A DNA stretch of 64,000 bases. It comes from Carboxylicivirga linearis (GTDB lineage Bacteria; Bacteroidota; Bacteroidia; Bacteroidales; Marinilabiliaceae). A program made the translations under genes and the position numbers. This document shows positions 40,544 to 55,774 of this stretch, piece by piece. Within the stretch, counting starts at the first letter, position 1, and every line of letters begins with the position of its first letter. The notes beneath the pieces are model-generated. The model saw only the letters and a program-made list of their open reading frames with translations. It ran no database searches and was not told the DNA's origin. Location: assembly GCF_018271995.1 (NCBI RefSeq), contig NZ_JAGUCO010000019.1, forward strand, positions 1-64,000, written 5' to 3'.

Positions 40544-41023
40544 ATGACCGAAGTAAAACAACTGGTACAGGACTTGGCTGATCAATTTGGACGAAGCCAG
40601 GAAAGTCTGTTACCGATTCTGCAAGGAATTGTCACCAAAGAGCAACACATCTCCGAAGATGCGATGATTGAAGTAGCCAGGGAATTGAATATTTCGGCAG
40701 CTCATGTTTACGGAACTGCAACCTTTTATTCATTCTTAAACACCAAACCACTCGGCAAGTATGTTATTCGTGTTTGCAAAACCATCACCTGTATGATGCA
40801 TGGTAAAAACCAAATAATAAAAGAGCTGGAAGCGGTTTTAAAAGTCAATTTAGGGGAGACAACTCATGATGGCAAGTTCACCCTACTTGAAACCAATTGC
40901 CTGGGACAATGCCATAAGGGACCGGCAATGCTGATAAATGACACACCGTATACTGAGCTTACTCCTGATAAGGTGAGAGAGATTATAATGATGTATCGTG
41001 ACAAGGAGTTACGAGTTAATTAA
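40544..41023 (+). CDS. hydC: HydC1: NuoE-like [2Fe-2S] subunit of NADH-dependent [FeFe] hydrogenase
   Basis: The 159-residue thioredoxin-like ferredoxin has four cluster cysteines, Cys78, Cys83, Cys119 and Cys123 (C-x4-C and C-x3-C), and the family's HVYGTATFYSFL segment. It passes electrons between the flavoprotein HydB and the hydrogenase subunit HydA in the cytoplasm. The ATG at 40544 is preferred to the GTG at 40520. It heads a tight operon with hydB1 (19-nt gap) and hydA1. Two palindromes lie upstream. Confidence 0.9.
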   Translation: MTEVKQLVQDLADQFGRSQESLLPILQGIVTKEQHISEDAMIEVARELNISAAHVYGTATFYSFLNTKPLGKYVIRVCKTITCMMHGKNQIIKELEAVLKVNLGETTHDGKFTLLETNCLGQCHKGPAMLINDTPYTELTPDKVREIIMMYRDKELRVN

Positions 41024-41042
41024 CCATTAAAATCTTTCAGCT

Positions 41043-42224
41043 ATGACAAAGAAACAGTTGCAACGTTTAGATCTCATATTTAAAAATGAGCATGATATAG
41101 AAGAAATTCTAACCAAAACCTTCAGTAAAAGTAACGAAGAAATAATTAATGACCTTATTAGCTCCGGCCTTAAAGGACGCGGAGGAGCAGGGTTTCCGAC
41201 CGGATTAAAATGGAAGTTGGCTTCAGAGGAAGAAACCGACTCTAAGTATATAATTTGTAATGCCGATGAAGGAGAACCAGGTACTTTTAAAGATCGTGAG
41301 ATTTTATCAAGGGTTCCACATAAAGTTTTAGCCGGTATGGCTGTATGTGCCCGTTTAATTGGAGCTCGTCAGGGGTATATTTATCTGAGAGGTGAATATG
41401 TGTTTTTGCGACCACAATTGTTAGAAGTAATTAACGAATTTCATCAGTTATTAGATAAGATAGGATTAGACTTTAGAGTTGAAATTTTCCTTGGTAGCGG
41501 AGCTTATATATGCGGTGAGGAAAGCGCCTTGTTCGAAAGTATGGAAGGTAAAAGGGGAGAACCTCGTAATAAACCACCTTTTCCTACACAACAGGGATAT
41601 AAAAGTAAACCTACAGTTATTAATAATGTGGAAACACTGGCCCATACATATTCAATATTTAAATATGGGGCCGATAAATTCAAGGATTTAGGAGTACAGG
41701 ATTCCAGAGGATCTAAAGTGTTTTCTGTTTCAGGTGATACTCCAATACCGGGCATATATGAGTTAGAATTTGGTATGTCGTTACAAAAGTTTGTTGATGA
41801 TTTTGCCGACGGCGATGCTAAAGCTGTGCAGGTTGGAGGAGCTTCGGGCTTTTGTGTGCCGCGAAAAAAATTTGAAAAGACAGTGATTGGTTATCAGGGA
41901 AAATTAAGAGGTACTTCTTTGCCAACCGGAGGATCTATGATGATCTTTAACTCCTCCCGGTCGATGTACAACGTACTTCATAATTATCTCGACTTTTTTG
42001 TTGAAGAATCCTGTGGCCAATGCACTCCCTGTAGGGTTGGAACGCAACAATTGTTGTTAGGTATTGAAGCTGTTAAAAAGGGAGATCAACCCTCTTCGTA
42101 CCTCGATAAATTAATGGAGTTGGCTGAAGCTATGCGTATAACTGCCAAATGTGGATTAGGTCAGTCAGTAGCCAATTCATTCTCTTCAATTGTGGAGAAT
42201 TTTAAAGAAGAAATGATCTACTAA
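41043..42224 (+). CDS. hydB: HydB1: short NuoF-like flavoprotein subunit
   Basis: The 393-residue protein contains the NuoF core: GLKGRGGAGFPTGLKW for FMN, NADEGEPGTFKDRE for NADH/FMN and CGEESALFESMEG. The N3-type [4Fe-4S] ligands are Cys324, Cys327, Cys330 and Cys370. It has neither the N-terminal thioredoxin-like [2Fe-2S] domain nor the C-terminal two-cluster ferredoxin domain that HydB2 (52074-53867) has. Those extra clusters are linked to electron bifurcation in characterised HydABC enzymes, so this subunit may serve a plain NADH-dependent enzyme. This is an inference. Confidence 0.92.
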   Translation: MTKKQLQRLDLIFKNEHDIEEILTKTFSKSNEEIINDLISSGLKGRGGAGFPTGLKWKLASEEETDSKYIICNADEGEPGTFKDREILSRVPHKVLAGMAVCARLIGARQGYIYLRGEYVFLRPQLLEVINEFHQLLDKIGLDFRVEIFLGSGAYICGEESALFESMEGKRGEPRNKPPFPTQQGYKSKPTVINNVETLAHTYSIFKYGADKFKDLGVQDSRGSKVFSVSGDTPIPGIYELEFGMSLQKFVDDFADGDAKAVQVGGASGFCVPRKKFEKTVIGYQGKLRGTSLPTGGSMMIFNSSRSMYNVLHNYLDFFVEESCGQCTPCRVGTQQLLLGIEAVKKGDQPSSYLDKLMELAEAMRITAKCGLGQSVANSFSSIVENFKEEMIY

Positions 42225-42241
42225 CCCTAAAAGTGAATATC

Positions 42242-44032
42242 ATGTCAGATAAAGTTAATTTACGTATCGATAATATAGCTGTAAGTGTTGAAGAAGGTAC
42301 AACAATATTGGAAGCAGCCCGAAAAGTAAATATTCGAATACCTACCTTATGTCATCACGAGGATTTATGTGTGGCTGGTAATTGTCGAGTTTGTATGGTA
42401 GAGCAAAAAGGATCGGATCGTTTACTCCCATCCTGTGCAATGCCTGTTTCCGAAGGAATGGAAATACAAACCAATAGTTTAAAGGTTCGGAGTGCTCGAA
42501 AGCAAATTATAGAGTTGTTGGTGAGCGAACATCGTGCTGATTGTACCCGCTGTTACAAAAACGGAAAGTGTGAATTGCAGGAGCTTGCATCTGAATATAT
42601 CATTGGTGAAAATGGGTTTATTGATTTGGTTCCATTGAAGGTGCTGACCATTGATAATTTTTCGCCGTCAATTATAAAAGATGATAGTAAATGCATCAGA
42701 TGTCAACGCTGTGTTCGAACCTGCGATCAACTGCAAAATATAGGCGCTTTAACGGTGGCTTACAAAGGAAAAGATATGAAAATATCCTCTTTTTATGAAA
42801 AGCCGATGTATGAAGTGGTTTGTACTAACTGTGGACAGTGTGTTAACCGATGTCCTACCGGTGCTTTAACAGAAAAGACTTATCTGGAACAAGTTTGGAG
42901 TGCTATCAATCATGAAAAGAAACATGTAGTAGTTCAAACCGCACCTGCTGTTCGTATTGCTTTGGGTGAAGCCCTGGGGATGCCGGCCGGTGAGATTGTT
43001 ACCGGTAAAATGGTATCTGCCTTACGCAGATTAGGTTTTGATTCTGTATTGGATACTGATTTTACAGCAGATCTTACCATTATTGAAGAAGGAAACGAAT
43101 TACTTCAACGACTCAAAAAAGTATTGGTAGATGGGGACAAATCGGTTAAGATACCTATGACAACATCATGCTCGCCAGGTTGGGTTAAATTTATCGAGCA
43201 TACATTTCCCGAATATCTCGATAATGTGTCAACTGCGAAATCACCTCAGCAGATGTTTGGCTCACTGGCCAAAACCTATTATGCTAAAAAGATTGAAGTC
43301 GAAGCTGATGATATTGTAAGTGTATCTGTAATGCCGTGTACTGCTAAAAAATATGAAGCCGATAGACCCGAGATGCGGAGCAGTGGATATAAAGATGTGG
43401 ATTTTGTACTAACCACACGCGAATTAGCTTTGATGATTAAACAGGCAGGTATTGACTTTGCTTCACTGCCAGAGGATGAATATGACAGCTTTATGGGAGA
43501 ATCGTCCGGAGCGGCTGTAATCTTCGGTGCAACAGGTGGAGTGATGGAGGCTGCTTTAAGAACGGCTTATGAAGTAGTTACAGGCAGAGAAGTTCCATTT
43601 GATGATTTAAATATTACACCTGTCAGAGGAATGGAGGAAATTAAGGAAGCAGCTGTTAAGATTGAAAATCCTTTACCTGAATGGAGTTTTCTTGATGGTG
43701 TTGAATTAAAAACCTGTGTAGCTCATGGATTGAGCAATGCCAAAAAGGTAATGGAGGCTGTTAAGGAAGGTAAGGTAGATTACCATTTTATCGAAATAAT
43801 GGCTTGTCCTGGTGGATGTTTGGGTGGTGGAGGTCAACCGATTCCAACTTCGCCCGCTATCAGAGAAAAACGAAGTCAGGCTATTTATCGCGAGGATAGT
43901 ATGAAACCAATTCGTAAGTCACACGAGAATCCTGAGGTATTACAAATTTATGAGGAATTCCTTAAAAAGCCTTTGGGTGAAAAATCGCACGAACTGTTGC
44001 ATACTCATTATACCGAAAGAAACAGATACTAA
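42242..44032 (+). CDS. hydA: HydA1: [FeFe] hydrogenase catalytic subunit, group A, with atypical TSCSPGW motif
   Basis: The 596-residue protein has an N-terminal [2Fe-2S] domain, a His-Cys3 [4Fe-4S] site (HRADCTRCYKNGKC), a two-cluster ferredoxin domain (CIRCQRCVRTC, CTNCGQCVNRCP) and the H-cluster domain. H-cluster motifs are TSCSPGW (Cys310, Ser311), MPCTAKKYE (Cys366) and MACPGGCLGGGGQP (Cys522, Cys526). At residue 311, where HydA2 has the cysteine that ligates the [4Fe-4S] part in characterised enzymes, there is serine. The start at 42242 is preferred to the GTG at 42233. It is third in the hydCBA operon and is followed by a strong terminator. Confidence 0.93.
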   Translation: MSDKVNLRIDNIAVSVEEGTTILEAARKVNIRIPTLCHHEDLCVAGNCRVCMVEQKGSDRLLPSCAMPVSEGMEIQTNSLKVRSARKQIIELLVSEHRADCTRCYKNGKCELQELASEYIIGENGFIDLVPLKVLTIDNFSPSIIKDDSKCIRCQRCVRTCDQLQNIGALTVAYKGKDMKISSFYEKPMYEVVCTNCGQCVNRCPTGALTEKTYLEQVWSAINHEKKHVVVQTAPAVRIALGEALGMPAGEIVTGKMVSALRRLGFDSVLDTDFTADLTIIEEGNELLQRLKKVLVDGDKSVKIPMTTSCSPGWVKFIEHTFPEYLDNVSTAKSPQQMFGSLAKTYYAKKIEVEADDIVSVSVMPCTAKKYEADRPEMRSSGYKDVDFVLTTRELALMIKQAGIDFASLPEDEYDSFMGESSGAAVIFGATGGVMEAALRTAYEVVTGREVPFDDLNITPVRGMEEIKEAAVKIENPLPEWSFLDGVELKTCVAHGLSNAKKVMEAVKEGKVDYHFIEIMACPGGCLGGGGQPIPTSPAIREKRSQAIYREDSMKPIRKSHENPEVLQIYEEFLKKPLGEKSHELLHTHYTERNRY

Positions 44033-44098: not shown

Positions 44099-44124
44099 AA
44101 CCGGGACGAGTTCCCGGTTTTTTT
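44099..44124 (+). terminator. Rho-independent terminator of hydC1B1A1
   Basis: An 8-bp perfect GC-rich stem (44099-44106 with 44112-44119) ends in a run of T to 44124. It separates set 1 from the signalling genes. Confidence 0.88.
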
Positions 44125-44251: not shown

Positions 44252-44512
44252 ATGGATAGCAAAAGTGAAATTACTATTTGTTTAGGAAGTTCTTGTTTTT
44301 CGAGAGGAAATAAAGAAGTTCTTCAGGTAATTAAAAAGTTTCTGGAAGAACATAATCTCGTTGATCAAGTGTTTTTTCATGGCGATTTATGCGGTGGGCG
44401 GTGTGCAGAAGGACCTGTATTGAAAATAGATAATACTCTGTATTCAAAGGTTAGTGTTGATAATGTTTACGAAATCCTTCGCAGCTATTTTGATATTAAC
44501 GATAATTTGTAG
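44252..44512 (+). CDS. Small thioredoxin-like [2Fe-2S] ferredoxin (HfsA-like)
   Basis: The 86-residue protein is a stand-alone NuoE-type thioredoxin-like ferredoxin domain with C-x4-C (CLGSSC) and C-x3-C (CGGRC). It lacks the N-terminal helical domain of HydC. It lies 12 nt before the PAS-containing hydrogenase-like gene and is probably its electron partner. The order ferredoxin, PAS hydrogenase, phosphatase recalls the hfsABC genes described in Thermoanaerobacterium; that comparison is from memory. Confidence 0.85.
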   Translation: MDSKSEITICLGSSCFSRGNKEVLQVIKKFLEEHNLVDQVFFHGDLCGGRCAEGPVLKIDNTLYSKVSVDNVYEILRSYFDINDNL

Positions 44513-44524
44513 AAAATACATTCC

Positions 44525-46384
44525 ATGGCTCAATTGATTGTTGCTGATAAAGATAAATGTAACCTGAGTTATACTTGTGTTAGAGTTTGTCCGTCAAAAG
44601 CTATTAAAATTGCAAACCGACATGCACAAATTTTGCCAGATCGTTGTATAGGTTGTGGCCATTGTGTTGCAATGTGTGCGCAAGAGGCTATTAGTTATCG
44701 CGATGAACAAACAATTGCACTGGAGTTATTGAGGTCGAAACAAAAAGTTGCTGCTATTTGCGATCCTGCTATTTCGGGCGAATTCAATGATGTATCTGAT
44801 TACAGAAAATTTGTGGCAATGATAAGGGCCTTAGGCTTCGATCTGGTAACAGATATGTCCTTTGCTGTTGATTTGGTGGCCTATCGTTACAAGGATTTAG
44901 TTGATAACTTTCAGGGCAAGCACTTTATTTCCAGTAAATGTCCGGCAACAGTAAAATATATCGAAAGACATGAGCCTGATTTAGTTGAGAATCTCGCAAC
45001 AATTGTACCGCCATATATTGCTATGAGTAAACTGGTGCATAAAAGATACGGACAGGATACAAAGATTATCTATATCAGTGCTTGCACGGCAGCTAAAGAT
45101 GACACAAGGCGTTTTCACGGCACTGACGGAGCAATTGATGTTGTTTTGACCTTTCTTGAGTTGAGAAAATTATTCAAAAAAGAGCGAATCACAGAGAATA
45201 CAGTTGAATATAGTGAATTTGATCCACCACTAGGACGAAAAGGTGGGTTATTTCCCATTTCACATGGTTTATTTCAGGCAGTTGACATCAATCAAGGCTT
45301 ATTGGAAGGTAATATTCTTATAACCGAGGGTAGAACCAATTTTTTACAATCCATCAAGGAATTCAAGGAAGAAAAAGAAATGAATCAGCACCTTGATCTG
45401 TTTTATTGTAAAGGGTGTATTATGGGGCCGGGAATGTCGCCGGGTGGAAAGAAATTTACCCGTAGGTCGCAGGTAATTGATTATGTTGATAAAAGAATGA
45501 AAGCAATTGATGTGTATCAATGGCGATTAGATATTGAAGAGTTTAAGTCACTGGATTTGACAAGGTCATTTAAACAGGTTGATTTGCGTTTGTTGCAACC
45601 AAAAGAAGAAGAGATTGATAAGGTTTTAGTGGAGATGGGGAAAGGCAAGCGGGAAGATCAGTTGGGGTGTGGAGCTTGTGGTTACCCTACTTGCCGCGAA
45701 TTTGCTGTTGCTCATCTGCAGGGCTTAACTAATTATGAGCAGTGTTATACATATTCAATCAATTCACTTCGTAGTTATGTGAATAAACTAAATGCTTCAA
45801 AAGAAAAATACAAGCAATCGCAGGATGCGCTAATGAAGAGCGAAGAGAAAGCGCGAAATGAAGAGAAAGCTGCGCGCGAGGCTGCAGAAACAACAACTGC
45901 CATGCTTAATAAGTTAAGGGCAGGAGTGGTAATGGTTGATACTAATTTAAAAGTAGTGGAAGCCAATCGGCGTTTTATCGAAATGTTGGGGGATGATGCC
46001 AGAGATATTGCAGAATTGATACCCGGACTGAAAGGAGCAGAATTAACCAAGTTGATTGATTTTCATAAAGTGTTTACCACCGTTCTCCAATCGGGGCAGG
46101 ATGTTTTAGACAGAGATGTCACCTATGGTAATTCTATATTAAATGTTTCAGTATTTACCATCAAAAAAAATGAGGTTGTCGGAGGTATTATCCGCGATTT
46201 GGTAACTCCTGAAGTGAGAAAAGAAGAGGTGATAAAACGTGCCCGCGATGTGATTAAGGAAAATCTGCAAACGGTTCAGCAAATAGCCTTTTTATTGGGT
46301 GAAAGTGCTTCCAAAACCGAAAAAACACTCAATAGTATTATAGAAGCTCAGCAGCTGGGAGAGGCCAATGAATCAGGAAAATAA
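44525..46384 (+). CDS. Divergent [FeFe]-hydrogenase-like sensor with Fe-S and PAS domains (HfsB-like)
   Basis: The 619-residue protein has an N-terminal ferredoxin domain, whose first site (CNLSYTCVRVC) lacks one of four cysteines while the second (CIGCGHCVAMC) is complete. A divergent H-cluster-like domain follows (about residues 60-375) with SSKCPAT (Cys139), SACTAAK and YCKGCIMGPG instead of the catalytic motifs. A four-cysteine Fe-S domain begins at LGCGACGYPTC (Cys382, 385, 390). After a coiled coil comes a PAS domain (about residues 470-580) and a helical tail. No kinase or DNA-binding domain is present. It is likely a hydrogen or redox sensor, not an efficient enzyme. The phosphatase gene overlaps its end by 17 nt. 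Confidence 0.85.
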   Translation: MAQLIVADKDKCNLSYTCVRVCPSKAIKIANRHAQILPDRCIGCGHCVAMCAQEAISYRDEQTIALELLRSKQKVAAICDPAISGEFNDVSDYRKFVAMIRALGFDLVTDMSFAVDLVAYRYKDLVDNFQGKHFISSKCPATVKYIERHEPDLVENLATIVPPYIAMSKLVHKRYGQDTKIIYISACTAAKDDTRRFHGTDGAIDVVLTFLELRKLFKKERITENTVEYSEFDPPLGRKGGLFPISHGLFQAVDINQGLLEGNILITEGRTNFLQSIKEFKEEKEMNQHLDLFYCKGCIMGPGMSPGGKKFTRRSQVIDYVDKRMKAIDVYQWRLDIEEFKSLDLTRSFKQVDLRLLQPKEEEIDKVLVEMGKGKREDQLGCGACGYPTCREFAVAHLQGLTNYEQCYTYSINSLRSYVNKLNASKEKYKQSQDALMKSEEKARNEEKAAREAAETTTAMLNKLRAGVVMVDTNLKVVEANRRFIEMLGDDARDIAELIPGLKGAELTKLIDFHKVFTTVLQSGQDVLDRDVTYGNSILNVSVFTIKKNEVVGGIIRDLVTPEVRKEEVIKRARDVIKENLQTVQQIAFLLGESASKTEKTLNSIIEAQQLGEANESGK

Positions 46385-47558
46385 ATTCTACATTGATATT
46401 GAATGTCGCCAAAATAACCACATAGGTGAGTTAATCTGTGGCGATGTTTTTCTCTCTAAAAGAATTAAGGAGGAGGGAAGAACTATTGCTGTGCTTTCCG
46501 ATGGAATGGGTAGTGGTGTAAAAGCCAATGTATTGGCAACTTTAACAGCATCTATGGCTTTAAATTTTACGGTTGAGCATCGTGAAGTTCGAAAGACGGC
46601 AGAAATTATTATGAATACGCTACCGGTTTGTAGTGTACGCAAAGTAAGCTACAGCACATTCACCATTATTGACATTGAAGATGATGGCACAACAACCATT
46701 GTAGAATACGATAATCCAACTTGTACTATTACCAGAGGAGCAGATTTATACGATCCAAAATGGCATTTTATAGAATTGGAAAGTGAGCAAAACAAAGGAA
46801 AGAAAATTAGAACCTGTAAGTTTATTGCCCGTCGTGAAGACCGTATTTTCTTTTGGTCAGATGGCATTATGCAATCAGGCATGGGTACTAAAGCTTTTCC
46901 GTTTGGCTGGGGTGAAGAAGGTATGTGCGATTATGTAAAGAGTTTAGTGCGATACACTCCCTTCGCATCATCAGGGAAATTGGCTCAAAAGGTTCTAAAT
47001 ATTGCTTTAATGCATGATGGAGACAAGCCAAAGGATGATTCTTCATGTGGAGTAATTTATTTTCGGGAGCCGCGCAAGTTATTATTGGTTACCGGACCTC
47101 CATTTGAAGATAGTAAGGATTTTGATTTTGCATTAAAGGTTCAACATTTTAAAGGTAAGAAGATAATTGCCGGAGGTACTACAGCCGAAGTTATCTCCAG
47201 AGAGCTGGCCTTAAAATTTGATGCTGGTCTGGAATCTGACGATCCGGATTTACCACCCATCTCATTTATGCAGGAAATAAATCTGGTTACCGAAGGTATT
47301 CTTACTTTGGGTAAAGTAGCTCGTTTACTTGAAAAATACAATATGGATTCGAGATTGGGGAAAGGTCCGGCTGATCAGATCATTAAAATGCTGTTCGAGA
47401 GCGATAAAATTCATATTATTAATGGAACAAGGATAAATGTTGCGCATCAGGATCCGAATTTGCCGGTGGAACTGGAAATTCGCAGAACGGTGGTTAAACG
47501 CATTGTTCGTTTATTGGAAGAAAAATTCCTTAAAGAAGTGGATGTTGAGTATATGTAG
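46368..47558 (+). CDS. SpoIIE-type PP2C serine/threonine phosphatase (HfsC-like)
   Basis: The 396-residue protein has a PP2C/SpoIIE catalytic domain in its first 230 residues: AVLSDGMGSGVKAN is the metal-binding motif, and FFWSDGIMQSGMG and KDDSSCGVIYF are later acidic motifs. The last 150 residues (from LLLVTGPPFEDSKDFDF) are a separate domain I do not recognise. SpoIIE enzymes dephosphorylate anti-anti-sigma factors that RsbW-type kinases phosphorylate; two such kinases are encoded nearby. Translational overlap with the PAS-hydrogenase gene suggests the two proteins act together. Confidence 0.88.
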   Translation: MNQENKFYIDIECRQNNHIGELICGDVFLSKRIKEEGRTIAVLSDGMGSGVKANVLATLTASMALNFTVEHREVRKTAEIIMNTLPVCSVRKVSYSTFTIIDIEDDGTTTIVEYDNPTCTITRGADLYDPKWHFIELESEQNKGKKIRTCKFIARREDRIFFWSDGIMQSGMGTKAFPFGWGEEGMCDYVKSLVRYTPFASSGKLAQKVLNIALMHDGDKPKDDSSCGVIYFREPRKLLLVTGPPFEDSKDFDFALKVQHFKGKKIIAGGTTAEVISRELALKFDAGLESDDPDLPPISFMQEINLVTEGILTLGKVARLLEKYNMDSRLGKGPADQIIKMLFESDKIHIINGTRINVAHQDPNLPVELEIRRTVVKRIVRLLEEKFLKEVDVEYM

Positions 47559-47572
47559 TTGATATAAATCAT
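47559..47572. promoter_or_regulatory. FNR-like site after the phosphatase gene
   Basis: TTGAT-ATAA-ATCAT differs from the FNR consensus TTGAT-N4-ATCAA at one position. It begins right after the phosphatase stop codon, 238 bp before the first DRTGG gene, in a 252-bp gap with no gene. A T-rich stretch (47708-47720) is the only other notable part of that gap. Confidence 0.45.
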
Positions 47573-47810
47573 AGATGCATAATTGTATTAAATCAATATT
47601 ATTGAGCTGTCTATGCATATATTTTATAAGCGATTAAGGCTGTTGTAATAATGTATTAATAAATGTTAATTTAGATTTGATATGTATTACATAAAATCAA
47701 GATCTTCCCTTTTTTTTTTCATATTATTAGTCTTCATTTGTTAAAGAATCAGGAATTTTTTCTTTAATCAATTTGGTTATTTCTGAATGTAATTTAACAG
47801 GTAATCAAGA

Positions 47811-48155
47811 ATGAAAATAAAAGAGATAGCAGAAATTATAGACGCCAAAATAGTCTGTGGCGAAAGCGACATTGACAAAGAGATATGTTGTGGTTTTGCC
47901 AGTGATCTGATGAGCGATGTTTTAACCCTCGATTCAGAGCAGCTGGTTTTGATTACCGGTTTAGCCAATATGCAAGTAATCAGAACTGCAGAAATGGCTG
48001 ATGTGAACTGCATTGTTTTTGTGCGCGATAAGCATGTGACTGAGCAAATGATTGAGGTTGCCAAAGAAAATGATATGGTTCTGGTAGAGTGTAAGTATTC
48101 GATGTTTAATGCAATAGGAAAATTGTTCCAGGCTGGATTAAATCCAGTGTACTGA
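47811..48155 (+). CDS. DRTGG domain protein 1
   Basis: The 114-residue protein consists of one DRTGG-type domain (about residues 1-110) with the ICCGFASDLMSDVL segment. DRTGG domains occur beside CBS and phosphotransacetylase domains and are thought to bind a small ligand; none is known for certain. It begins a tight run of six genes with gaps from 9 nt down to overlaps, 6 nt before the first ATPase. A related protein is encoded at 49957-50292. Confidence 0.82.
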   Translation: MKIKEIAEIIDAKIVCGESDIDKEICCGFASDLMSDVLTLDSEQLVLITGLANMQVIRTAEMADVNCIVFVRDKHVTEQMIEVAKENDMVLVECKYSMFNAIGKLFQAGLNPVY

Positions 48156-48161
48156 TAAGGT

Positions 48162-48578
48162 ATGGATTTTAACTACGAAGTGGAAGGCGGGAATTTCGCA
48201 AAGGCAGGTTATGCAGCAAGTAATGTTAAAAAGGTGCTGAAGCAGCTGAATGTGGATCCCAAGGTAATAAAACGCGTGGTAGTAGCCTTGTACGAAGGTG
48301 AAGTTAATGTAGTGGCCCATGCTTATAAAGGTAATATCAGGGTAGATATTGACACCGAACGAATTATTATTGAAATAAAAGATGAAGGTCCCGGAATACC
48401 TGATATTGATTTAGCGATGCAGGTTGGTTATTCAACAGCATCAGCTATGGTGAGAGAAATGGGATTTGGTGCCGGAATGGGACTTCCTAATATGAAACGA
48501 AACGCTGACTCTTTAAATATTTCAAGTACAGTAGGCAAAGGTACAGTGGTGGAATTAACCACTTATTTGCAGAAATAA
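48162..48578 (+). CDS. Anti-sigma-factor-like GHKL ATPase/kinase (RsbW-like) 1
   Basis: The 138-residue protein is a free HATPase_c domain: N-box around EGEVNVVAHAY, G1 box DEGPGIPD and G2 box GFGAGMGLPNMKR. This is the layout of RsbW/SpoIIAB serine kinases, not of full histidine kinases, as there is no phosphoacceptor histidine domain. It could phosphorylate a target that the SpoIIE phosphatase upstream reverses. No STAS-domain antagonist is present in the locus, so the partner is unknown. Confidence 0.87.
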   Translation: MDFNYEVEGGNFAKAGYAASNVKKVLKQLNVDPKVIKRVVVALYEGEVNVVAHAYKGNIRVDIDTERIIIEIKDEGPGIPDIDLAMQVGYSTASAMVREMGFGAGMGLPNMKRNADSLNISSTVGKGTVVELTTYLQK

Positions 48579-48587
48579 AACAATGGT

Positions 48588-49970
48588 ATGAGCGAACAAC
48601 AGTTTTATCATGCTTTAAAAGTCGATAAAGACAAGTGCTTTGGATGCGTTCATTGTATGAATGAATGTCCAACAGATGCAATCCGCATAAGGGATGGTGT
48701 GGCTACTATTCGAAAGGATTGGTGCATTGATTGTGGCGAATGTATGAAGGCGTGCCCGGTAGATGCTATCTATGTAGAGCAGGATGACTTTGATGATATC
48801 TTCAATTATAAATTTAGGGTAGCTATATTACCTTCAGTTTTTATTGGGCAGTTTTCAAAACAGATAAACGTTGAAGAAATAATAGAAGTGTTGCATGGTT
48901 TAGGTTTTACACATATCATTCCGGCCGAGGCAACCGTTGATGTCATTAATCAGGCTATGTTGGAAGCCTATGATTCAGAAGTAGAAAAACCTTTGATTAC
49001 GACTTTTTGTCCATCTATCGTTCGGTTGATACAAATAAGATTTCCCGGATTGGTGAACAATATTCTTCCCATATCGCCACCCATTGATAGCACGGCTACC
49101 TATTATCGTAAAAGACTAATTGATGAAGGAAAAAATCCGGATGAGATTGGAATATTTTATGTAACACCATGCGCATCTAAAATTGCAACGGTAAAGTCAC
49201 CTGAAGGTCAGGATAATTCATCGGTTGATGGTGTAATTAATATGGATTTTCTTTACAATAAAGTATTCCATATTTTAAATAACCGAAATAAAGACATTAA
49301 GGATAATGATAACTATAACCTTGAATTTATTAGCCCCAAAGCATTAAAATGGAGCTTGACGGAAGGAGAATCGACCAATATGAAAGGGAGATGTCTGGCT
49401 ATCGACGAAATTCATAATGTTATCAAGTTTCTTAATAAAGTAGAGAACGATGAAATAATCAATGTTGATTTTTTGGAATTACGAGCTTGCGATCAGAGTT
49501 GTGCTGGAGGAGTTTTGCTTAGTGAAAACCGATTTCTTACGGTGGAACGGATGAAAAAGCGTGCAGAACATTTGGAAGAATTGCAGCTTGTGCCCAATGA
49601 AATAAGTTTTGATCATCAGCAATTTATCAAAGAAAAGTTGACTATTAATTCCATTAAGCCGCGATCGATGATGGGGCTGGATAATGATATGGCTACCGCT
49701 ATTAAAAAAATGGAGCGTGTTCGTCGTATCATGTGCTTTTTGCCGGGTATTGACTGTGGAGCTTGTGGTTCGCCTAGTTGCGAGGGCTTGGCACGCGATA
49801 TTGTGCTAAAAGATGCCAACCTATCAAACTGTGTGTTTATGCAACGCATGATGGAAAAAAGTAAGAAGCTCGATCCACAGCATTCGATCCGTATTATCGA
49901 AAAGACATGGGGCAAAGACCGACTGGATAAGGATTGTTATAAAAAAGGAGCAAAAAATGAAGGTATCTGA
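48588..49970 (+). CDS. Second divergent [FeFe]-hydrogenase-like protein (HfsD-like)
   Basis: The 460-residue protein has an N-terminal two-cluster ferredoxin domain (CFGCVHCMNECP and CIDCGECMKACP, both complete), then a divergent H-cluster-like domain and a C-terminal Fe-S domain (GIDCGACGSPSC). H-cluster positions read TTFCPSI, TPCASKIA and LRACDQSCAGG. The four ligand cysteines are kept but the proton-relay cysteine of TSCCP is phenylalanine. It lacks a PAS domain. It may be a second sensor or an electron-transfer partner. The following DRTGG gene overlaps it by 14 nt. Confidence 0.85.
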   Translation: MSEQQFYHALKVDKDKCFGCVHCMNECPTDAIRIRDGVATIRKDWCIDCGECMKACPVDAIYVEQDDFDDIFNYKFRVAILPSVFIGQFSKQINVEEIIEVLHGLGFTHIIPAEATVDVINQAMLEAYDSEVEKPLITTFCPSIVRLIQIRFPGLVNNILPISPPIDSTATYYRKRLIDEGKNPDEIGIFYVTPCASKIATVKSPEGQDNSSVDGVINMDFLYNKVFHILNNRNKDIKDNDNYNLEFISPKALKWSLTEGESTNMKGRCLAIDEIHNVIKFLNKVENDEIINVDFLELRACDQSCAGGVLLSENRFLTVERMKKRAEHLEELQLVPNEISFDHQQFIKEKLTINSIKPRSMMGLDNDMATAIKKMERVRRIMCFLPGIDCGACGSPSCEGLARDIVLKDANLSNCVFMQRMMEKSKKLDPQHSIRIIEKTWGKDRLDKDCYKKGAKNEGI

Positions 49971-50292
49971 TATAATCAAAAAATTGAATTTAAAAGTAAT
50001 CGCCGGAGAGGAAGGCTTAAATAACGAGGTCACAGGAGGCTATACTTCAGACTTGTTAAGTGATGTGATGGGGAATGCCGATGAAGGTCAGGTATGGATT
50101 ACTTTACAAACACACCGAAATGTAATGGCTGTGGCATCGTTGAAAGAGGTAGCAGCCGTAATTATTGTAAAGGGTTTGGAGGCTGAAGAGAGTACCATCA
50201 GTCAAAGTAACGATGAAGGCATTCCGCTGTTAAGTTCTGATCTTGAAACGTTCGAGTTATCAGGACAGCTATATCAGATATTACACGAGTAA
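49957..50292 (+). CDS. DRTGG domain protein 2
   Basis: The 111-residue protein is a second single DRTGG domain, with VTGGYTSDLLSDVMG near residue 30. It is only moderately similar to the first copy and starts inside the end of the hydrogenase-like gene (14-nt overlap), a sign of coupled translation. It may bind a small ligand and inform the neighbouring kinase; this is speculative. Confidence 0.82.
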   Translation: MKVSDIIKKLNLKVIAGEEGLNNEVTGGYTSDLLSDVMGNADEGQVWITLQTHRNVMAVASLKEVAAVIIVKGLEAEESTISQSNDEGIPLLSSDLETFELSGQLYQILHE

Positions 50293-50293
50293 T

Positions 50294-51037
50294 ATGAAAC
50301 TGTTCAAAGCCGATCTGCATATTCATACGGTTTTGTCTCCTTGTGGAAGTCTGGAGATGAGTCCAAAGGTGATTGTGGAAAGTGCTTTGAGTAAAGGCAT
50401 TGATATCATTGGTATAACAGATCATAACTCTACATTACAATGTACAGAAGTGGTGAGGTTAGCCAATAAAAATGGTCTGGCAGTGCTTTGTGGAGCAGAA
50501 GTTACTACAAAAGAAGAGGTGCATTGCCTAACGTTCTTTGAAAATTTTGAAAAACTTGAAACCTTTCAACATTATTTAGATCAATTTCTGCCGAATATTC
50601 CTAATGATACTGAGATGTTTGGCCATCAGGTATGGGTGGACGAGGATGAAAATATTTTGGGTGAAGAAAAGCGCTTGTTGATTAGTGCCATCGATCAGAG
50701 CATTGATGAGGTAGAAGCGAAAGTAAGAAGCCTTGATGGATTATTTATACCGGCTCATGTTGATAGGGGACGTTTCAGTCTTTATAGTCAATTGGGATTT
50801 ATGCCATTTGATTTAAAACCTGATGCCGTAGGTATGACTTATAGAGCTGAAGTGGATAAGATGATTGATTTGCATCCTGAACTAAAAGAGCTAACTATTC
50901 TTCGTTCATCTGATGCACATTTCCCGAATGCGATTGGTGAACATTACACTGTTTTTGAACTGGAAGAAGGTTCTTTTCAGGAAGTGAGAATGGCTCTTCA
51001 TCAGAAGAATAATAGAAAAGTAATAGAGTTGGTATGA
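50294..51037 (+). CDS. PHP-domain metal-dependent phosphoesterase
   Basis: The 247-residue protein starts at 50294 with KADLHIHTVLSPCG, the first metal-binding motif of the PHP family, followed by IGITDHNS, CGAEVTTKEEVH, PAHVDRGRFS and RSSDAHFPNAIGEHY. Relatives hydrolyse phosphoesters such as 3',5'-nucleotide products or histidinol phosphate. In this locus a signalling nucleotide or a phosphoprotein is possible as substrate but not shown. Its last codons overlap the next ATPase start by 4 nt. Confidence 0.87.
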   Translation: MKLFKADLHIHTVLSPCGSLEMSPKVIVESALSKGIDIIGITDHNSTLQCTEVVRLANKNGLAVLCGAEVTTKEEVHCLTFFENFEKLETFQHYLDQFLPNIPNDTEMFGHQVWVDEDENILGEEKRLLISAIDQSIDEVEAKVRSLDGLFIPAHVDRGRFSLYSQLGFMPFDLKPDAVGMTYRAEVDKMIDLHPELKELTILRSSDAHFPNAIGEHYTVFELEEGSFQEVRMALHQKNNRKVIELV

Positions 51038-51576
51038 GAGATTTATCAATGCATATCACTGATATTGTTCAGAACTCAGTTAGAGCGCAAGCCAAATTGG
51101 TTCAGCTAACCATTGAAGAGAAAGAGGATTGGCTCATTTTTACTTTTGAGGATGATGGAACCGGAATGGATGAAGAAACGGTTAAAAAGGTTACAGATCC
51201 TTTTTTTACCTCACGAACAACTCGGAAAGTTGGGCTTGGATTACCCTTATTCAAGCAAAATGCCGAAATGACCGGAGGTTCTTTAGTTATCTTTTCAGAG
51301 CTGGGCAAAGGAACAGAAGTAAAGGTTGTGATGGGATTAAATCATATCGATCGTCCGCCCATGGGAGATTTACCTTCTACAGTGGCTATGATCATAACAG
51401 GCAATCCGGATGTGGATATGGTATTTAAATATATTAAAAGTGATAGTGAATTTTCTCTCGATAGCAGAGAAGTAAAAGAGGCGTTGGATGGTATGGATAT
51501 CAGGATGCCACAGGTAACAAGTTTTTTAAAAGAAATGATTGATGAAAATTTAAAAGAGATAAAAGTAAACTTATAA
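51034..51576 (+). CDS. GHKL ATPase/kinase 2
   Basis: The 180-residue protein has a histidine-kinase-type ATPase domain in the first 105 residues: HITDIVQNSVRA (N-box), DDGTGMDEE (G1), DPFFTSR (F-box) and KVGLGLPLFKQNAEM (G2). The F-box makes it closer to histidine kinases than kinase 1 is. No phosphoacceptor histidine domain is visible; the C-terminal 75 residues are not recognised. It ends the signalling block; 77 bp follow before hydD, with a TAGCT-N4-AGCTA palindrome at 51588-51601. Confidence 0.85.
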   Translation: MRDLSMHITDIVQNSVRAQAKLVQLTIEEKEDWLIFTFEDDGTGMDEETVKKVTDPFFTSRTTRKVGLGLPLFKQNAEMTGGSLVIFSELGKGTEVKVVMGLNHIDRPPMGDLPSTVAMIITGNPDVDMVFKYIKSDSEFSLDSREVKEALDGMDIRMPQVTSFLKEMIDENLKEIKVNL

Positions 51577-51653: not shown

Positions 51654-52061
51654 ATGACTAAAGTGAAATCCCTTGCCGATCTTCGAAAAATGAAGGAGGA
51701 GATGGCAAACAAAGTCCAGCTAAGAGAAAAAGGCGATCATCCTGATCAACTTGTTCAGGTAAAAGTGTCGATGGCCACCTGTGGAATTGCATCAGGAGCC
51801 AAAGAAGTGATGAACCATCTGATTGACCAATTGGATCAACAGGCTATTGAAGCAGTGGTTACCCAAACCGGATGCATGGGCTATTGCTATGCCGAGCCTA
51901 CTATTGAAGTAACATTGCCTAACTCCAGTCCGGTTGTTTTTGGTTATGTTGATACCAAAAAAGCCAGTGAAATAATCTCAAGATACATAATCAGAGGTGA
52001 ACTGGTGGACGGTATCATACCCGTAAATTACGAGACAGTTAACGAAAAAAAGAAAGACTAG
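51654..52061 (+). CDS. hydD: HydD: thioredoxin-like [2Fe-2S] domain protein of the hydrogenase operon
   Basis: The 135-residue protein has a thioredoxin-like ferredoxin fold with ATCGIASGAKEV and TGCMGYCYAEP motifs. Only three of four usual cluster cysteines are seen, since the partner of the cysteine in ATCGIAS is missing, which I recall as usual for this subfamily. An N-terminal helical extension (LADLRKMKEEMANK) is present. Proteins like this lie next to hydB in HydABCD operons of Acetobacterium type. It is followed by hydB2 after 12 nt. Confidence 0.83.
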   Translation: MTKVKSLADLRKMKEEMANKVQLREKGDHPDQLVQVKVSMATCGIASGAKEVMNHLIDQLDQQAIEAVVTQTGCMGYCYAEPTIEVTLPNSSPVVFGYVDTKKASEIISRYIIRGELVDGIIPVNYETVNEKKKD

Positions 52062-52073
52062 GATTAATACGTT

Positions 52074-53867
52074 ATGGCAAAATATAAAAATCATGTTCTT
52101 GTGTGTGGTGGTACAGGATGCCGCGCCTCACAAGGAGAAGAGATTGTATACAATCTGAATCGTGTCATCGAGGAAAATGGCCTCGAACAGGAAGTTCAGG
52201 TGGTGAGAACAGGATGTTTCGGATTCTGCGAGAAAGGTCCTGTAGTAAAAATGGTTCCCGACAATACGTTTTACGTACAGGTTAGTCCTGATGATGCCGA
52301 GGAGATAGTGAAAGAGCACTTGGTAAAAGGTCGGCAGGTAGAAAGATTATTATACACCGATCCGGAAACGAAGAAACACGTATCGGAGTCGAAAAATATG
52401 GGTTTTTATAAAAAGCAGATTCGAATTGCATTACGAAACTGTGGTTTTATCAACCCCGAAAATATTGATGAATACATAGCTCGTGATGGATACGCATCGT
52501 TAGGTATGGCTATTACTGAGATGAAGCCTGAAGAGGTTATCAGAATCATTATTGATTCAGGATTACGTGGTCGTGGTGGAGGAGGATTCCCTACCGGCTT
52601 AAAGTGGGATATTACCCGAAAGGTAGAATCTGACCAGAAATATGTGGTTTGTAATGCTGATGAAGGTGATCCGGGTGCTTTTATGGACCGGTCTATTCTT
52701 GAAGGTGATCCTCATTCAGTTCTTGAAGCTATGGCTATCAATGGATATTGTACAGGTGCCAATCAAGGATTAATTTATATACGTGCCGAATACCCATTGG
52801 CAATTTCACGATTGAAGATTGCTATTCAGCAGGCTCGTGAATATGGTCTGCTAGGTAAAGATATATTTGGTACTGGGTTTGATTTTGATGTTGAGTTACG
52901 CTATGGAGCTGGTGCTTTTGTATGTGGTGAAGAAACATCATTGATACACTCGATGGAAGGTTTACGAGGCGAACCAACGGTTAAACCTCCATTCCCTTCG
53001 GAAAGTGGATACAAAGGAAAGCCTACCAATGTAAATAACGTGGAAACCTATGCCAATATTCCGGTTATTTTAATGAAAGGTGCCAAGTGGTTCAGCAGCA
53101 TTGGAACCGAAAAAAGTAAAGGAACTAAAGTATTTGCTTTAGCCGGTAAGGTTAATAATGTGGGACTGATTGAAGTACCTATGGGTACTACTCTTCGCGA
53201 AGTAATTTTTGATATTGGCGGAGGTATTAAAGACGGTAAAAAATTTAAAGCTGTTCAAACTGGTGGACCGTCAGGCGGATGTTTAACAGAAAAGCATCTG
53301 GATATTCCAATCGACTATGATAACCTGATTGCCAGCGGATCTATGATGGGGTCTGGTGGTATGATTGTAATGGATGAAGACGATTGTATGGTGTCTATGG
53401 CTAAGTTCTATCTCGATTTTACAGTGGAAGAGTCATGTGGTAAATGTGCTCCTTGTAGAATCGGTAACAAGCGTTTGTATGAAATGCTTCATAAGATAAC
53501 AGAAGGCAAAGGAACCGAAGAAGATTTAAGTAATTTGCGTAACCTGAGTAATGTAATTAAAGATACATCGCTTTGCGGTTTGGGGCAGACTTCTCCTAAT
53601 CCGGTTTTATCTACCATGGAAAATTTCTGGGATGAATACATGGCACACGTTAAAGAAGATAAGTGTCCGGCCGGACAGTGTAAATCGTTGATGCAATACA
53701 TAATCAGCGAAGAAAAATGTGTGGGCTGTACATTGTGTTCTCGTGTTTGTCCGGTTGATGCAATTACAGGTGATAAAAAAGCACCTCATGTTATCAACCC
53801 TACAACATGTATTAAATGTGGAGCGTGTTTTGAGAAATGTAAGTTTGGAGCTATTAGCATCCAATAA
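52074..53867 (+). CDS. hydB: HydB2: full-length NuoF-like flavoprotein subunit with extra Fe-S domains
   Basis: The 597-residue subunit has three parts. The N-terminal thioredoxin-like domain (about residues 1-95) carries CGGTGC and TGCFGFC. The NuoF core has the FMN motif GLRGRGGGGFPTGLKW, NADEGDPGAFMDRS, CGEETSLIHSMEG and the SCGKCAPCRIG cluster site. The C-terminal two-cluster ferredoxin domain reads CVGCTLCSRVCP and CIKCGACFEKCK. This is the layout of HydB from electron-bifurcating hydrogenases, which couple NADH and reduced ferredoxin to hydrogen formation. The contrast with HydB1 suggests that the two sets differ in mechanism. Confidence 0.94.
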   Translation: MAKYKNHVLVCGGTGCRASQGEEIVYNLNRVIEENGLEQEVQVVRTGCFGFCEKGPVVKMVPDNTFYVQVSPDDAEEIVKEHLVKGRQVERLLYTDPETKKHVSESKNMGFYKKQIRIALRNCGFINPENIDEYIARDGYASLGMAITEMKPEEVIRIIIDSGLRGRGGGGFPTGLKWDITRKVESDQKYVVCNADEGDPGAFMDRSILEGDPHSVLEAMAINGYCTGANQGLIYIRAEYPLAISRLKIAIQQAREYGLLGKDIFGTGFDFDVELRYGAGAFVCGEETSLIHSMEGLRGEPTVKPPFPSESGYKGKPTNVNNVETYANIPVILMKGAKWFSSIGTEKSKGTKVFALAGKVNNVGLIEVPMGTTLREVIFDIGGGIKDGKKFKAVQTGGPSGGCLTEKHLDIPIDYDNLIASGSMMGSGGMIVMDEDDCMVSMAKFYLDFTVEESCGKCAPCRIGNKRLYEMLHKITEGKGTEEDLSNLRNLSNVIKDTSLCGLGQTSPNPVLSTMENFWDEYMAHVKEDKCPAGQCKSLMQYIISEEKCVGCTLCSRVCPVDAITGDKKAPHVINPTTCIKCGACFEKCKFGAISIQ

Positions 53868-53903
53868 TTTACACAATTAGTTTTGAACAGAAAAAGATAA
53901 GAA

Positions 53904-55670
53904 ATGGATATCGTTCAATTAACCATAGATAATAAAAAGGTAGTTGTTGAGAAAGGCACTACCATCTTAGAAGCGGCAAAGACAATAGGGGTGGATGTGC
54001 CTACGCTTTGTCATATGAAGCTGGAAGACACCAATTTTGAGAATAAGCCCGGAGGATGTCGTGTGTGTGTTGTAGAGGTCGAAGGACGTCGTAATCTGGC
54101 TCCGGCATGTAAAACCGAATGTACCGAGGGTATGATGGTGAATACTCACTCGGTGAGAGTGGTAAATGCTCGTCGTACCGTAATGGAATTGATACTTTCT
54201 GATCACCCATTTGATTGTTTGGTATGCGCTAAGTCGGGTGATTGTGAATTGCAGAGTTTGGCTCAGAATTTGGGTATTCGTGAGATTAAATATACCGGTG
54301 CTAAAAGTACTTACAAAGGTGATGAGTCTCCTGCTATTATTCGCGACATGGATAAATGTATAATGTGTCGTCGTTGCGAAACAGCCTGTAATGAAGTGCA
54401 GACTGTAGGTGTGTTGTCAGCAATTAATCGAGGATTTGAATCGGTTGTGGCACCAGCCTTCGAGATGGATCTCGATCACTCAACTTGTACTTTCTGCGGT
54501 CAGTGTGTAGCAGTTTGTCCTACCGGTGCTTTAACCGAGCGCGATAGTTCATCGAAAGTGATGGACGCCATTGTAAATCCTAAGAAAAAAGTGATAGTTC
54601 AGACTGCGCCAGCTGTTAGAGCTGCTTTAGGTGAAGAGTTTGGAATGGAAGCTGGCACTTTGGTTACTGGTAAAATGGTTTCAGCATTGCGTAAGCTTGG
54701 GTTCGACTATGTGTTTGATACCGATTTTGCTGCCGATCTTACCATTATGGAAGAAGGTACTGAATTATTAGACCGTTTAAGTAAGCATCTGGCTGGAGAT
54801 AAAGAAGTGAAATTACCTATCCTTACATCATGCTGTCCGGGCTGGGTGAATTTCTTCGAGCACCAGTTCCCTGAAATGATTGATATACCTTCAACGGCTA
54901 AATCACCTCAACAGATGTTTGGTGCTATTGCTAAAACGTATTTTGCTGATCAGTTAAAGGAAAAACGTGAAGATGTAGTGGTGGTTTCGGTAATGCCGTG
55001 TCTGGCTAAGAAATATGAGTGTTCGCGCGATGAGTTTGCTGTTGATGGCGATCCGGATGTGAATATTTCTATCTCAACAAGAGAGTTGGCACAAATGATT
55101 CGCAATGCCAACCTTAATTTTGAGGCCTTAGAAGAAGATGATTTTGACAATCCACTGGGTGAATCAACCGGCGCTGCGGTTATTTTTGGTACAACGGGTG
55201 GTGTGATCGAAGCTGCTGTTCGTACTGCCTATGAGGTGCATACTAAAAAGCCATTGGAACGCCTTGATTTTGAAGAGTTGCGCGGTATGGAAGGTATTCG
55301 TTCTGCAACGATTGATTTTGATGGTCTTCCAATCAATATTGGAATAGCACATGGTTTGGGTAATGCTCGCAAACTGCTTGAAGACATCAAGGCAGGTAAA
55401 TCACAATTTCATGCTATTGAAATAATGGCTTGCCCAGGTGGATGTATTGGTGGTGGTGGTCAGCCATATCATCACGGTAATATGGAAATTCTGAAAAAAC
55501 GTCAGAAAGCTATTTATGAAGAGGATAAAGGAAAGACCTTGCGTAAGTCACATGAGAATCCGTTTATACAAAAATTGTATGCTGAGTTCTTAGGTGAGCC
55601 TTGTGGACATAAATCGCATGAGTTACTGCATACGCATTATTACGATAAAAAAAAGAAGGTTGAAATCTGA
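53904..55670 (+). CDS. hydA: HydA2: [FeFe] hydrogenase catalytic subunit, group A, canonical
   Basis: The 588-residue protein has the same domain order as HydA1: [2Fe-2S], His-Cys3 site (HPFDCLVCAKSGDC), two-cluster ferredoxin domain and H-cluster domain. All H-cluster motifs are canonical: TSCCPGW (Cys310, Cys311), MPCLAKKYE (Cys366) and MACPGGCIGGGGQP (Cys510, Cys514). A catalytic, probably bifurcating enzyme with HydB2 and HydC2 is the best reading. The maturases HydE, HydF and HydG are not in the window. Confidence 0.95.
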   Translation: MDIVQLTIDNKKVVVEKGTTILEAAKTIGVDVPTLCHMKLEDTNFENKPGGCRVCVVEVEGRRNLAPACKTECTEGMMVNTHSVRVVNARRTVMELILSDHPFDCLVCAKSGDCELQSLAQNLGIREIKYTGAKSTYKGDESPAIIRDMDKCIMCRRCETACNEVQTVGVLSAINRGFESVVAPAFEMDLDHSTCTFCGQCVAVCPTGALTERDSSSKVMDAIVNPKKKVIVQTAPAVRAALGEEFGMEAGTLVTGKMVSALRKLGFDYVFDTDFAADLTIMEEGTELLDRLSKHLAGDKEVKLPILTSCCPGWVNFFEHQFPEMIDIPSTAKSPQQMFGAIAKTYFADQLKEKREDVVVVSVMPCLAKKYECSRDEFAVDGDPDVNISISTRELAQMIRNANLNFEALEEDDFDNPLGESTGAAVIFGTTGGVIEAAVRTAYEVHTKKPLERLDFEELRGMEGIRSATIDFDGLPINIGIAHGLGNARKLLEDIKAGKSQFHAIEIMACPGGCIGGGGQPYHHGNMEILKKRQKAIYEEDKGKTLRKSHENPFIQKLYAEFLGEPCGHKSHELLHTHYYDKKKKVEI

Positions 55671-55763: not shown

Positions 55764-55774
55764 AAAAAACAAAA

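Follow-up and report, generated by a model that had tools for sequence, protein, structure and literature searches.

The window, that is, the whole 64,000-nucleotide stretch of Carboxylicivirga linearis DNA analysed here, contains nine ORFs between positions 44252 and 51576, all on the forward strand. By Pfam they encode a thioredoxin-like 2Fe-2S protein, two proteins with an Fe_hyd_lg_C domain (one of which also carries a PAS domain), a SpoIIE-type phosphatase, two HATPase_c proteins, two DRTGG proteins and a PHP protein. The two DRTGG genes score 23.7 bits (slightly below the Pfam cut-off of 25.2) and 26 bits (slightly above it). The nine ORFs and the hydrogenase genes on either side are arranged as follows:

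40520–44032, + strand: upstream HydC-HydB-HydA (167, 393 and 599 aa)
44099–44119, + strand: weak terminator-like hairpin behind the upstream HydA, a pattern-only match
44252–44512, + strand: small thioredoxin-like [2Fe-2S] protein, 86 aa (PF01257, 2e-9)
44525–46384, + strand: HydS-like PAS protein, 619 aa (PF02906, 2e-37; PF04060; PAS_8)
46368–47558, + strand: SpoIIE/PP2C-type phosphatase, 396 aa (PF07228, 27.9 bits, cut-off 25)
47559–47810, no strand: AT-rich gap of 252 bp, with one TAGATTTG at 47672
47811–48155, + strand: D1, DRTGG protein 1, 114 aa (PF07085, 4e-5; Ser35 and Thr49 invariant)
48162–48578, + strand: K1, predicted SpoIIAB-like GHKL kinase, 138 aa
48588–49970, + strand: Hyd460, hydrogenase-like Fe-S protein without PAS, presumed sensor (C-terminal Cx2Cx4Cx16C)
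49957–50292, + strand: D2, DRTGG protein 2, 111 aa
50294–51037, + strand: predicted PHP metal-dependent phosphoesterase, 247 aa (PF02811)
51034–51576, + strand: K2, second GHKL ATPase, 180 aa (PF02518, 3e-16; N-box D10/N14)
51654–56251, + strand: downstream X-HydB-HydA-HydC, NADH-linked [FeFe] hydrogenase, the presumed regulated enzyme

An earlier note on this DNA had described nine tightly packed genes between two complete HydABC sets. The ORFs, their domains and both flanking sets are as it stated, but the single tight block is not, with 219 bp preceding the ferredoxin gene and 252 bp (78% AT) lying between the phosphatase gene and D1. Spacing inside each of the two resulting blocks ranges from −17 to 12 bp, and the nine genes form two separable signalling modules, A (44252–47558) and B (47811–51576), parted by the AT-rich gap. 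The word "complete" also needs correction for the upstream HydA, which has TSCSPGW where the motif name is TSCCPGW (C299/C300 being a name of the same kind). Of 31 upstream-type copies checked, 30 show this change, the window's own among them.

Terminator-like sites in the scanned region numbered 3, against 4.9 expected from shuffles, and the hairpin at 44099–44119 is therefore weak. A promoter scan gave about equal numbers of sites in the sequence and in shuffles (31 and 26.5), and for the Bacteroidetes −7 element there was no enrichment of TANNTTTG in the window (77 versus 83). By Pfam, none of the nine genes encodes a STAS, sigma-factor or DNA-binding domain, bearing out the earlier note; five STAS matches lie elsewhere in the genome, whose only DRTGG matches are D1 and D2.

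Neighbourhoods of the two modules

We compared loci selected by K1 (n = 102, one locus per Bacteroidales genome) and loci selected by Hyd460 (a first set of 20 and a second of 80, some sharing a genome, for example L045/L059, L047/L061 and L048/L060). The scan of genome contigs confirmed 534 places, of which the 80 best were kept, titled Bacteroidota or unplaced, and so gives a limited view of other phyla.

By sequence and gene order, module A matches the HydS locus of Ruminococcus albus, and we assign it to the type of HydS-phosphatase set published for R. albus and hfs. The R. albus 7 record, read directly, has the thioredoxin-like [2Fe-2S] protein, HydS and SpoIIE phosphatase in the same order, and its HydS scores 209 bits against a profile of the window's HydS family. 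The HydS-like protein is laid out as two [4Fe-4S] clusters, a hydrogenase domain, a C-terminal FeS motif and PAS; its gene is overlapped by 17 bp by that of the phosphatase, whose LSDGMGSG motif is invariant in 24/24 copies. The PAS hydrogenase is thus followed by a SpoIIE phosphatase, as in HydS/hfs sets, whereas HydA2/HfsD, which adjoins in the hfs-type set, is absent beside the window's module A. A second copy of module A in the same genome (contig C93, L140) comes with a HydA2-like gene. The comparison with hfsABCD of Thermoanaerobacterium, including the shared PAS domain, follows the portion of PMC11837493 available to us; the hfs resemblance raised in the earlier note fits the first three genes (ferredoxin, HydS and phosphatase).

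The stretches read from R. albus and Monoglobus, and the second copy L140, have module A with neither D1 nor K1, and in this the R. albus stretch differs from the window. Conversely, a phosphatase lies within the fetched stretch in 8 of the 102 K1-selected loci. A single cascade, in which the HydS-controlled SpoIIE phosphatase dephosphorylates the K1 substrate, would gain from the two gene sets lying next to each other in the same orientation, both here and in close relatives, where cross-talk could have arisen: the ferredoxin, HydS and phosphatase genes stand upstream of D1 in 16/20 first-set loci (a 17th, L055, shows HydS and phosphatase) and in 6/80 second-set loci (one of them, L063, with a ferredoxin match of no more than 44 bits). 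Given the 8/102 count, the solitary module A copies and the 252-bp gap, we consider such a cascade highly improbable. The neighbourhood comparison rules out the nine genes as a single system; the regulatory genes are conserved together, as the earlier note had asked of them, within module B and not as a nine-gene unit. Its pairing of phosphatase and K1 as one partner-switching core is likewise unsupported, since the phosphatase is so seldom present and has a PAS-protein partner of its own.

K1 and its probable DRTGG partner

Module B has the order DRTGG1-K1-Hyd460-DRTGG2-PHP-K2. Among the K1-selected loci D1 is immediately upstream of K1 in 98 and fused to it in two, and in the other two its place falls beyond the contig end, so that D1 is beside or fused to K1 in 100/100 loci with that side visible. 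The D1-K1-Hyd460 order recurs in 100/100 Hyd460-selected loci (some genomes counted twice), and the arrangement exceeds chance. Both fusions carry DRTGG and HATPase domains by Pfam (the DRTGG of L154, at 24.2 bits, is slightly below the cut-off) and support the kinase-DRTGG partnership suspected in the earlier note.

Read against the N-box pattern of GHKL proteins, K1 residues E45, N49, D74, G103, G105 and G107 (the last three forming the GxGxG box) are invariant in 182/182 unique sequences above 100 bits; this count, like those of 156 and 175 below, refers to unique sequences over score thresholds, with very divergent copies left out. The nearest solved structures are anti-sigma F factors (SpoIIAB), and TIGR01925 matches K1 at 67 bits (1.6e-18), under its cut-off of 135. 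By likeness and residues, K1 is predicted to be a GHKL Ser/Thr kinase of the SpoIIAB/RsbW type.

D1 alone as query gave no match in a PDB sequence search. Its AF2 model (pLDDT 95.6) best matches the DRTGG structure 2ioj (TM 0.85), indicating that D1 folds as DRTGG; a hidden STAS fold was ruled out by the model and the fold search. Ser35 and Thr49 are the only Ser/Thr residues invariant in both D1 (182/182) and D2 (156/156, with residue numbers shifted by 5). Ser35, in a short helix (34–37) of the model, is the most likely candidate phosphosite, although its conservation may have a structural reason. In the mechanism we propose, K1 would bind D1 and probably phosphorylate it, most likely at Ser35 in the conserved SDLMSDVL loop, and D2 would act as a second, parallel partner.

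Module B resembles SpoIIAB/RsbW partner switching in pairing a SpoIIAB-like kinase with a small partner gene. Unlike those systems, it has DRTGG in place of the STAS partner, no STAS anti-anti-sigma substrate in the block and no adjacent sigma factor; PP2C lies outside the module, and the sensor is separate and exchangeable. The likeness of K1 to SpoIIAB would also suit a transcriptional switch in which K1 holds a sigma or DNA-binding protein whose gene lies elsewhere and D1 serves as anti-anti-factor, but with the DRTGG fold of D1 and no sigma or DNA-binding domain in the nine genes we think this quite unlikely. The fold of D1 also matches the DRTGG of the CBS-DRTGG regulatory region of a pyrophosphatase (3l2b), and in two relatives of module B a single operon likewise brings DRTGG and CBS together; unlike in 3l2b, DRTGG in module B is free-standing or fused to the kinase.

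The DRTGG/K1-type kinase pairing, with an exchangeable sensor and often beside NADH-linked redox enzymes, is apparently undescribed in the literature searched. Our literature search for hydrogenase and DRTGG returned PMC10102598 alone, which, in the part available, concerns an AAA-DRTGG gene required on L-lactate.

The presumed sensor position of module B

Hyd460 directly follows K1 in 95 of the 102 K1-selected loci, is divergent in one and is lacking in six. In L149 and L150 K1 itself carries two CBS domains (CBS-CBS-K1) and Hyd460 is gone from the locus. The sensor of module B is thus exchangeable: Hyd460, a CBS pair, or none visible.

The four presumed H-cluster cysteines of Hyd460 are kept in 175/175 copies covering them. 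The residue preceding the first is Phe in 97/101 copies, whereas catalytic enzymes have Cys there. The window's genome encodes HydE and HydG, and in 37 of the 50 genomes with module B a HydG match scores above its cut-off. HydG is missing from three module-B genomes (99% complete by estimate), two of them with Hyd460 (G261 and G269), and Hyd460 is the sole PF02906 protein of G261. Four Parabacteroides with module B likewise lack HydG, and their HydE and HydF are not over cut-off.

With PAS absent and a C-terminal Cx2Cx4Cx16C cluster motif, Hyd460 shows two features of group D hydrogenases. The available text of PMC8163306 describes the group D protein TamHydS, which can bear an H-cluster and is a proposed sensor, with the same absence of PAS, two N-terminal [4Fe-4S] clusters, the same C-terminal motif and, as at Hyd460, a histidine kinase-like ATPase neighbour. 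It also reports an AraC gene near TamHydS, which the window's block lacks; the likeness is one of description rather than of a sequence tree, and the fetched records contained no named M2e sequence.

The TamHydS precedent, the retained cysteines, HydE and HydG in the window's genome and HydG in most module-B genomes would fit Hyd460 as a strict H2 sensor with a full H-cluster, module B then reporting H2. This idea is weakened because Hyd460 is kept without HydG and is missing or replaced by CBS elsewhere, and the Phe before the first cysteine also speaks against it; we regard it as unlikely. Of the H2 or Fe-S redox sensor put forward in the earlier note, the H2 part is accordingly weakened for module B. 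The input read by Hyd460 would probably be Fe-S cluster redox state, or H2 wherever the protein acquires an H-cluster.

A search for loss of the H-cluster cysteines where maturases are missing found none, Parabacteroides, G261 and G269 all retaining them. In one sequence, however, L157, the lysine that follows the second motif is gone, and four (L151–L154) have lost one N-terminal cluster cysteine.

Linked enzymes and the proposed switch

A HydB gene of either type lies within the stretch in 74/102 K1-selected loci (downstream type, 69/102), bearing out the earlier expectation that the regulatory genes are a conserved set linked to hydrogenase operons. The link between module B and HydBC is common and not universal, because 28/102 stretches show no HydB of either type (five of them extend less than 3.5 kb beyond K1 on the downstream side, the others at least 5.7 kb). 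It persists where [FeFe] HydA gives way to a [NiFe] hydrogenase, as in L150, or to a molybdopterin enzyme, as in L154. About 16 kb separate module B from HydX-B-A-C in Parabacteroides gordonii, and L180 and L191 have D1-K1 with no flavoenzyme in view.

Among 295 Bacteroidales genomes sampled from 178 genera, 102 genomes in 66 genera carry K1, and module B is present in gut Parabacteroides. Operons of Moorella and Thermoanaerobacter presumably hold similar genes. For module B, the evidence from Clostridia consists of one record (L144), with the same gene set, and one figure legend, that of the Sporomusa HydABC/Stn region in PMC12003927, which lists spoIIAB, rsxB and hndB; the region, likened here by gene names alone, is not treated as a module in the part of that paper available.

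Following the metal-binding pattern of PHP enzymes, the nine expected residues (HxH, DH, E, H, H, DxH) are invariant in 86/86 copies, or 83/83 toward the C terminus. The nearest structure is endonuclease Q (TM 0.76), which is not a phosphoprotein phosphatase. The PHP enzyme, or K2, would be the likely reset of the switch, a role that is not universal because D2 is unseen in 15/100 Hyd460-selected loci (some stretches cut). In L144, K2 lies inside a HydC-K2-X-B-A order.

K1, K2 and the DRTGG proteins could instead serve the NADH-linked flavoenzyme as ATP-dependent helpers or as allosteric subunits, with no kinase relay. Such a role would account for the frequent linkage to HydB-type genes across enzyme classes, the K2 position in L144 and the regulatory place of DRTGG in 3l2b; as K1 keeps the expected kinase residues, D1-K1 occurs without a flavoenzyme in view, and sensor exchange better fits signalling, we find it improbable, about on a par with strict H2 sensing.

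We give an even chance to module B being a kinase/DRTGG switch with an exchangeable sensor that regulates NADH-linked HydBC-type complexes, module A being separate. The state of D1 and D2 would then set the activity, assembly or expression of the NADH-linked HydB/HydC (NuoF/NuoE-like) complex, whose genes usually lie close by. More tentatively, and with somewhat less confidence, module B may represent a partner-switch-like class in which DRTGG replaces STAS, plug-in sensors (hydrogenase-like Fe-S proteins able to function without the [2Fe] subsite, or CBS domains) supply the input, and electron-bifurcating NADH-linked complexes are the dedicated objects of control.

These findings bear on the way bifurcating hydrogenases are tuned to H2 and redox state in anaerobes. 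For group C and D hydrogenases, the path from sensor to enzyme is termed unproven or untested in the parts of the literature available to us. The D1-K1 fusions and the sensor exchange point to the D1/K1 pair, with Ser35 and Thr49 as the foremost residues, and warn that a hydrogenase-like sensor does not necessarily sense H2.

Two gene blocks between two hydrogenase sets

ORF calling and a domain search of the window recovered all nine genes described in the earlier note, with the domains it assigned, between two HydABC-type sets on contig C92 of the 6.05-Mb C. linearis genome (G000):

40520-44032, upstream set, HydC-HydB-HydA
44252-47558, module A: Trx-like [2Fe-2S] ferredoxin, HydS-like PAS hydrogenase, SpoIIE/PP2C phosphatase
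47811-51576, module B: D1-K1-Hyd460-D2-PHP-K2 (D1 and D2, small DRTGG proteins; K1 and K2, GHKL ATPases; Hyd460, a hydrogenase-like Fe-S protein without PAS; PHP, a phosphoesterase)
51654-56251, downstream set, X-HydB-HydA-HydC

The description of these genes as tightly packed holds within each module (spacings of 12 and -17 bp in module A, and of 6, 9, -14, 1 and -4 bp in module B), but a 252-bp, 78% AT gap between the phosphatase and D1 splits the nine. The maturase gene HydG lies shortly past the window's end (C92:64111-65496), and HydE is on a different contig. The upstream HydA (42233-44032) carries TSCSPGW and the downstream one TSCCPGW; the former motif is common to 30 of 31 upstream-type HydA copies, and L224, classed by score with the downstream type, has it too.

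Module A, the ordinary part of the nine genes, belongs to a type already described. A plasmid record of R. albus 7 holds a row of genes, two with a (2Fe-2S) ferredoxin domain and one each for a HydS-type hydrogenase, a SpoIIE phosphatase and a 4Fe-4S protein of HydA2 type, which match the module A profiles at 209 bits (HydS), 229 bits (phosphatase), and 49 and 55 bits (ferredoxins); Monoglobus has the same row, but with a single ferredoxin gene. One study describes HfsB as carrying PAS and HfsC as homologous to a phosphatase, and gives HydS and HydA2 as the R. albus counterparts of HfsB and HfsD (PMC11837493). A second set of this type, with a HydA2-like gene, occurs in G000 itself (HydS-phosphatase-HydA2-like; L140, C93:752000-771500), near an ORF matching a histidine-kinase-like ATPase and another reading like a response regulator. 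The sensor part also varies, since domain search showed the phosphatase partner in L158 to be a PAS-domain protein without a hydrogenase domain. A phosphatase of module A type adjoining a protein that resembles only the PAS end of HydS was seen in L158 (8964-9890; checked) and, as judged from scores, in L094, L111, L114 and L130, in each case divergently oriented from module B.

Conservation of module B and exchange of its presumed sensor

Using Hyd460 as bait, we compared 100 loci (20 from sampled genomes and the best 80 of 534 confirmed contig places, some genomes appearing twice). The order D1-K1-Hyd460 was kept in all 100 and the complete six-gene order in 67; D2 preceded the core in eight (L096, L099, L103, L108, L113, L116, L124 and L125) and was not seen in 15, some of which are incomplete stretches. 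Because this bait guarantees the presence of Hyd460, the survey was also done with K1 (E<=1e-25), which occurred in 102/295 sampled Bacteroidales genomes, covering 66 of 178 genera, and, when the sample spanned the phylum, in five of 296 genomes, one of them the window's. All 102 Bacteroidales loci were annotated. D1 lay directly upstream of K1 in 98, was fused to it in two and was out of view in two; Hyd460 followed K1 directly in 95, D2 occurred anywhere in the stretch in 89, and the six-gene order was complete in 71. Among the seven loci without a strong Hyd460, L157 has a divergent copy and no Hyd460-like ORF was found in the other six. D1-K1 is the irreducible unit in these data.

The two fusions (L153 and L154), from two different families, join D1 to K1 in a single 282-283-codon frame in which Pfam matches both DRTGG and HATPase. 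Two annotated loci from genomes of other orders, L149 and L150, have no Hyd460 between K1 and D2, and their K1 carries two CBS domains at its N terminus (PF00571; E 4e-27 and 1e-26).

The neighbouring enzyme varies too. The window has [FeFe] HydABC, L150 has genes of a [NiFe] hydrogenase, and in L154 NuoE/F-like genes accompany a molybdopterin subunit. Despite these differences, a HydB/NuoF-type subunit is common to all three neighbourhoods. HydB was of the downstream type in 69/102 K1-bait stretches and of either type in 74/102; what speaks most strongly against a constant link between module B and a HydB enzyme is that 28/102 stretches, five of them short, have no HydB gene.

In Clostridia, a Subdoligranulum record (L144) holds D1-K1-Hyd-D2-PHP together with a divergent HydC-K2-X-B-A, and a figure legend in a Sporomusa study lists spoIIAB, rsxB and hndB among the genes of a HydABC/Stn region (PMC12003927). 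From that gene list, spoIIAB and rsxB are likely candidate relatives of K1 and Hyd460. Module B is therefore not confined to Bacteroidota.

Hyd460 and the maturases

All four presumed H-cluster cysteines of Hyd460 are present in 175/175 copies covering them. Cys20 of its first N-terminal [4Fe-4S] motif is His in L151 and L154, Asp in L152 and Arg in L153. Fifty module-B genomes had matches over the cut-off as follows: HydF 33, HydG 37, group A hydrogenase 47. Single absences carry little weight, because many of the 50 are MAGs. For three genomes that are each 99% complete, G261, G269 and G317, a genome profile search gave no match to HydG. Hyd460 is the sole PF02906 (hydrogenase domain) protein of G261, G269 has a second hydrogenase on C103, and no PF02906 protein was found in G317, a CBS-type genome; G136, the second genome of this type, has a hydrogenase as well as HydG. 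Since Hyd460 is kept in genomes without a HydG match, it may possibly sense redox state through its [4Fe-4S] clusters only, rather than H2, a role that would be more likely in G261.

Four Parabacteroides genomes with module B (G055-G058, L065-L068) gave no HydG match and no HydE or HydF over the cut-off. Two of the four, one of them P. gordonii, were examined more closely, and in both HydABC looks intact. In P. gordonii the motifs are intact in HydX-B-A-C and in an additional hydrogenase, which has TSCCPSYV. In L142 (Parabacteroides) HydA looks intact and shares a single 753-codon frame (5997-8255) with HydC. No paper among those listed by a literature search dealt with how such hydrogenases would be matured.

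Module B and partner switching

K1, whose nearest solved structure is SpoIIAB, is invariant at E45, E47, N49, D74, G76, G78, G103, G105 and G107 in 182/182 copies; the N-box Glu of K1 corresponds to an Asp in K2 (75/75 copies). The D1 model shows a DRTGG fold (pLDDT 95.6; TM 0.85 to 2ioj), and no Ser or Thr other than Ser35 and Thr49 is invariant in both D1 and D2. PHP has the full metal-type residue set and an invariant Cys in LSPC, its nearest solved relatives being endonuclease Q and other PHP phosphoesterases.

The phosphatase and K1 had been proposed as a partner-switching core. This pairing is not supported: a phosphatase occurs anywhere in the stretch in only 8/102 K1-bait loci (HydS-type in 7/102). 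Like partner-switching systems, module B combines a GHKL kinase with a small partner, but it lacks a STAS partner and an integral PP2C, and because these two defining features fail we do not class it as such. What looks new, with no description found in the literature searched, is a pair formed by a DRTGG protein and a kinase, which has exchangeable sensors and frequently lies next to NADH-linked complexes.
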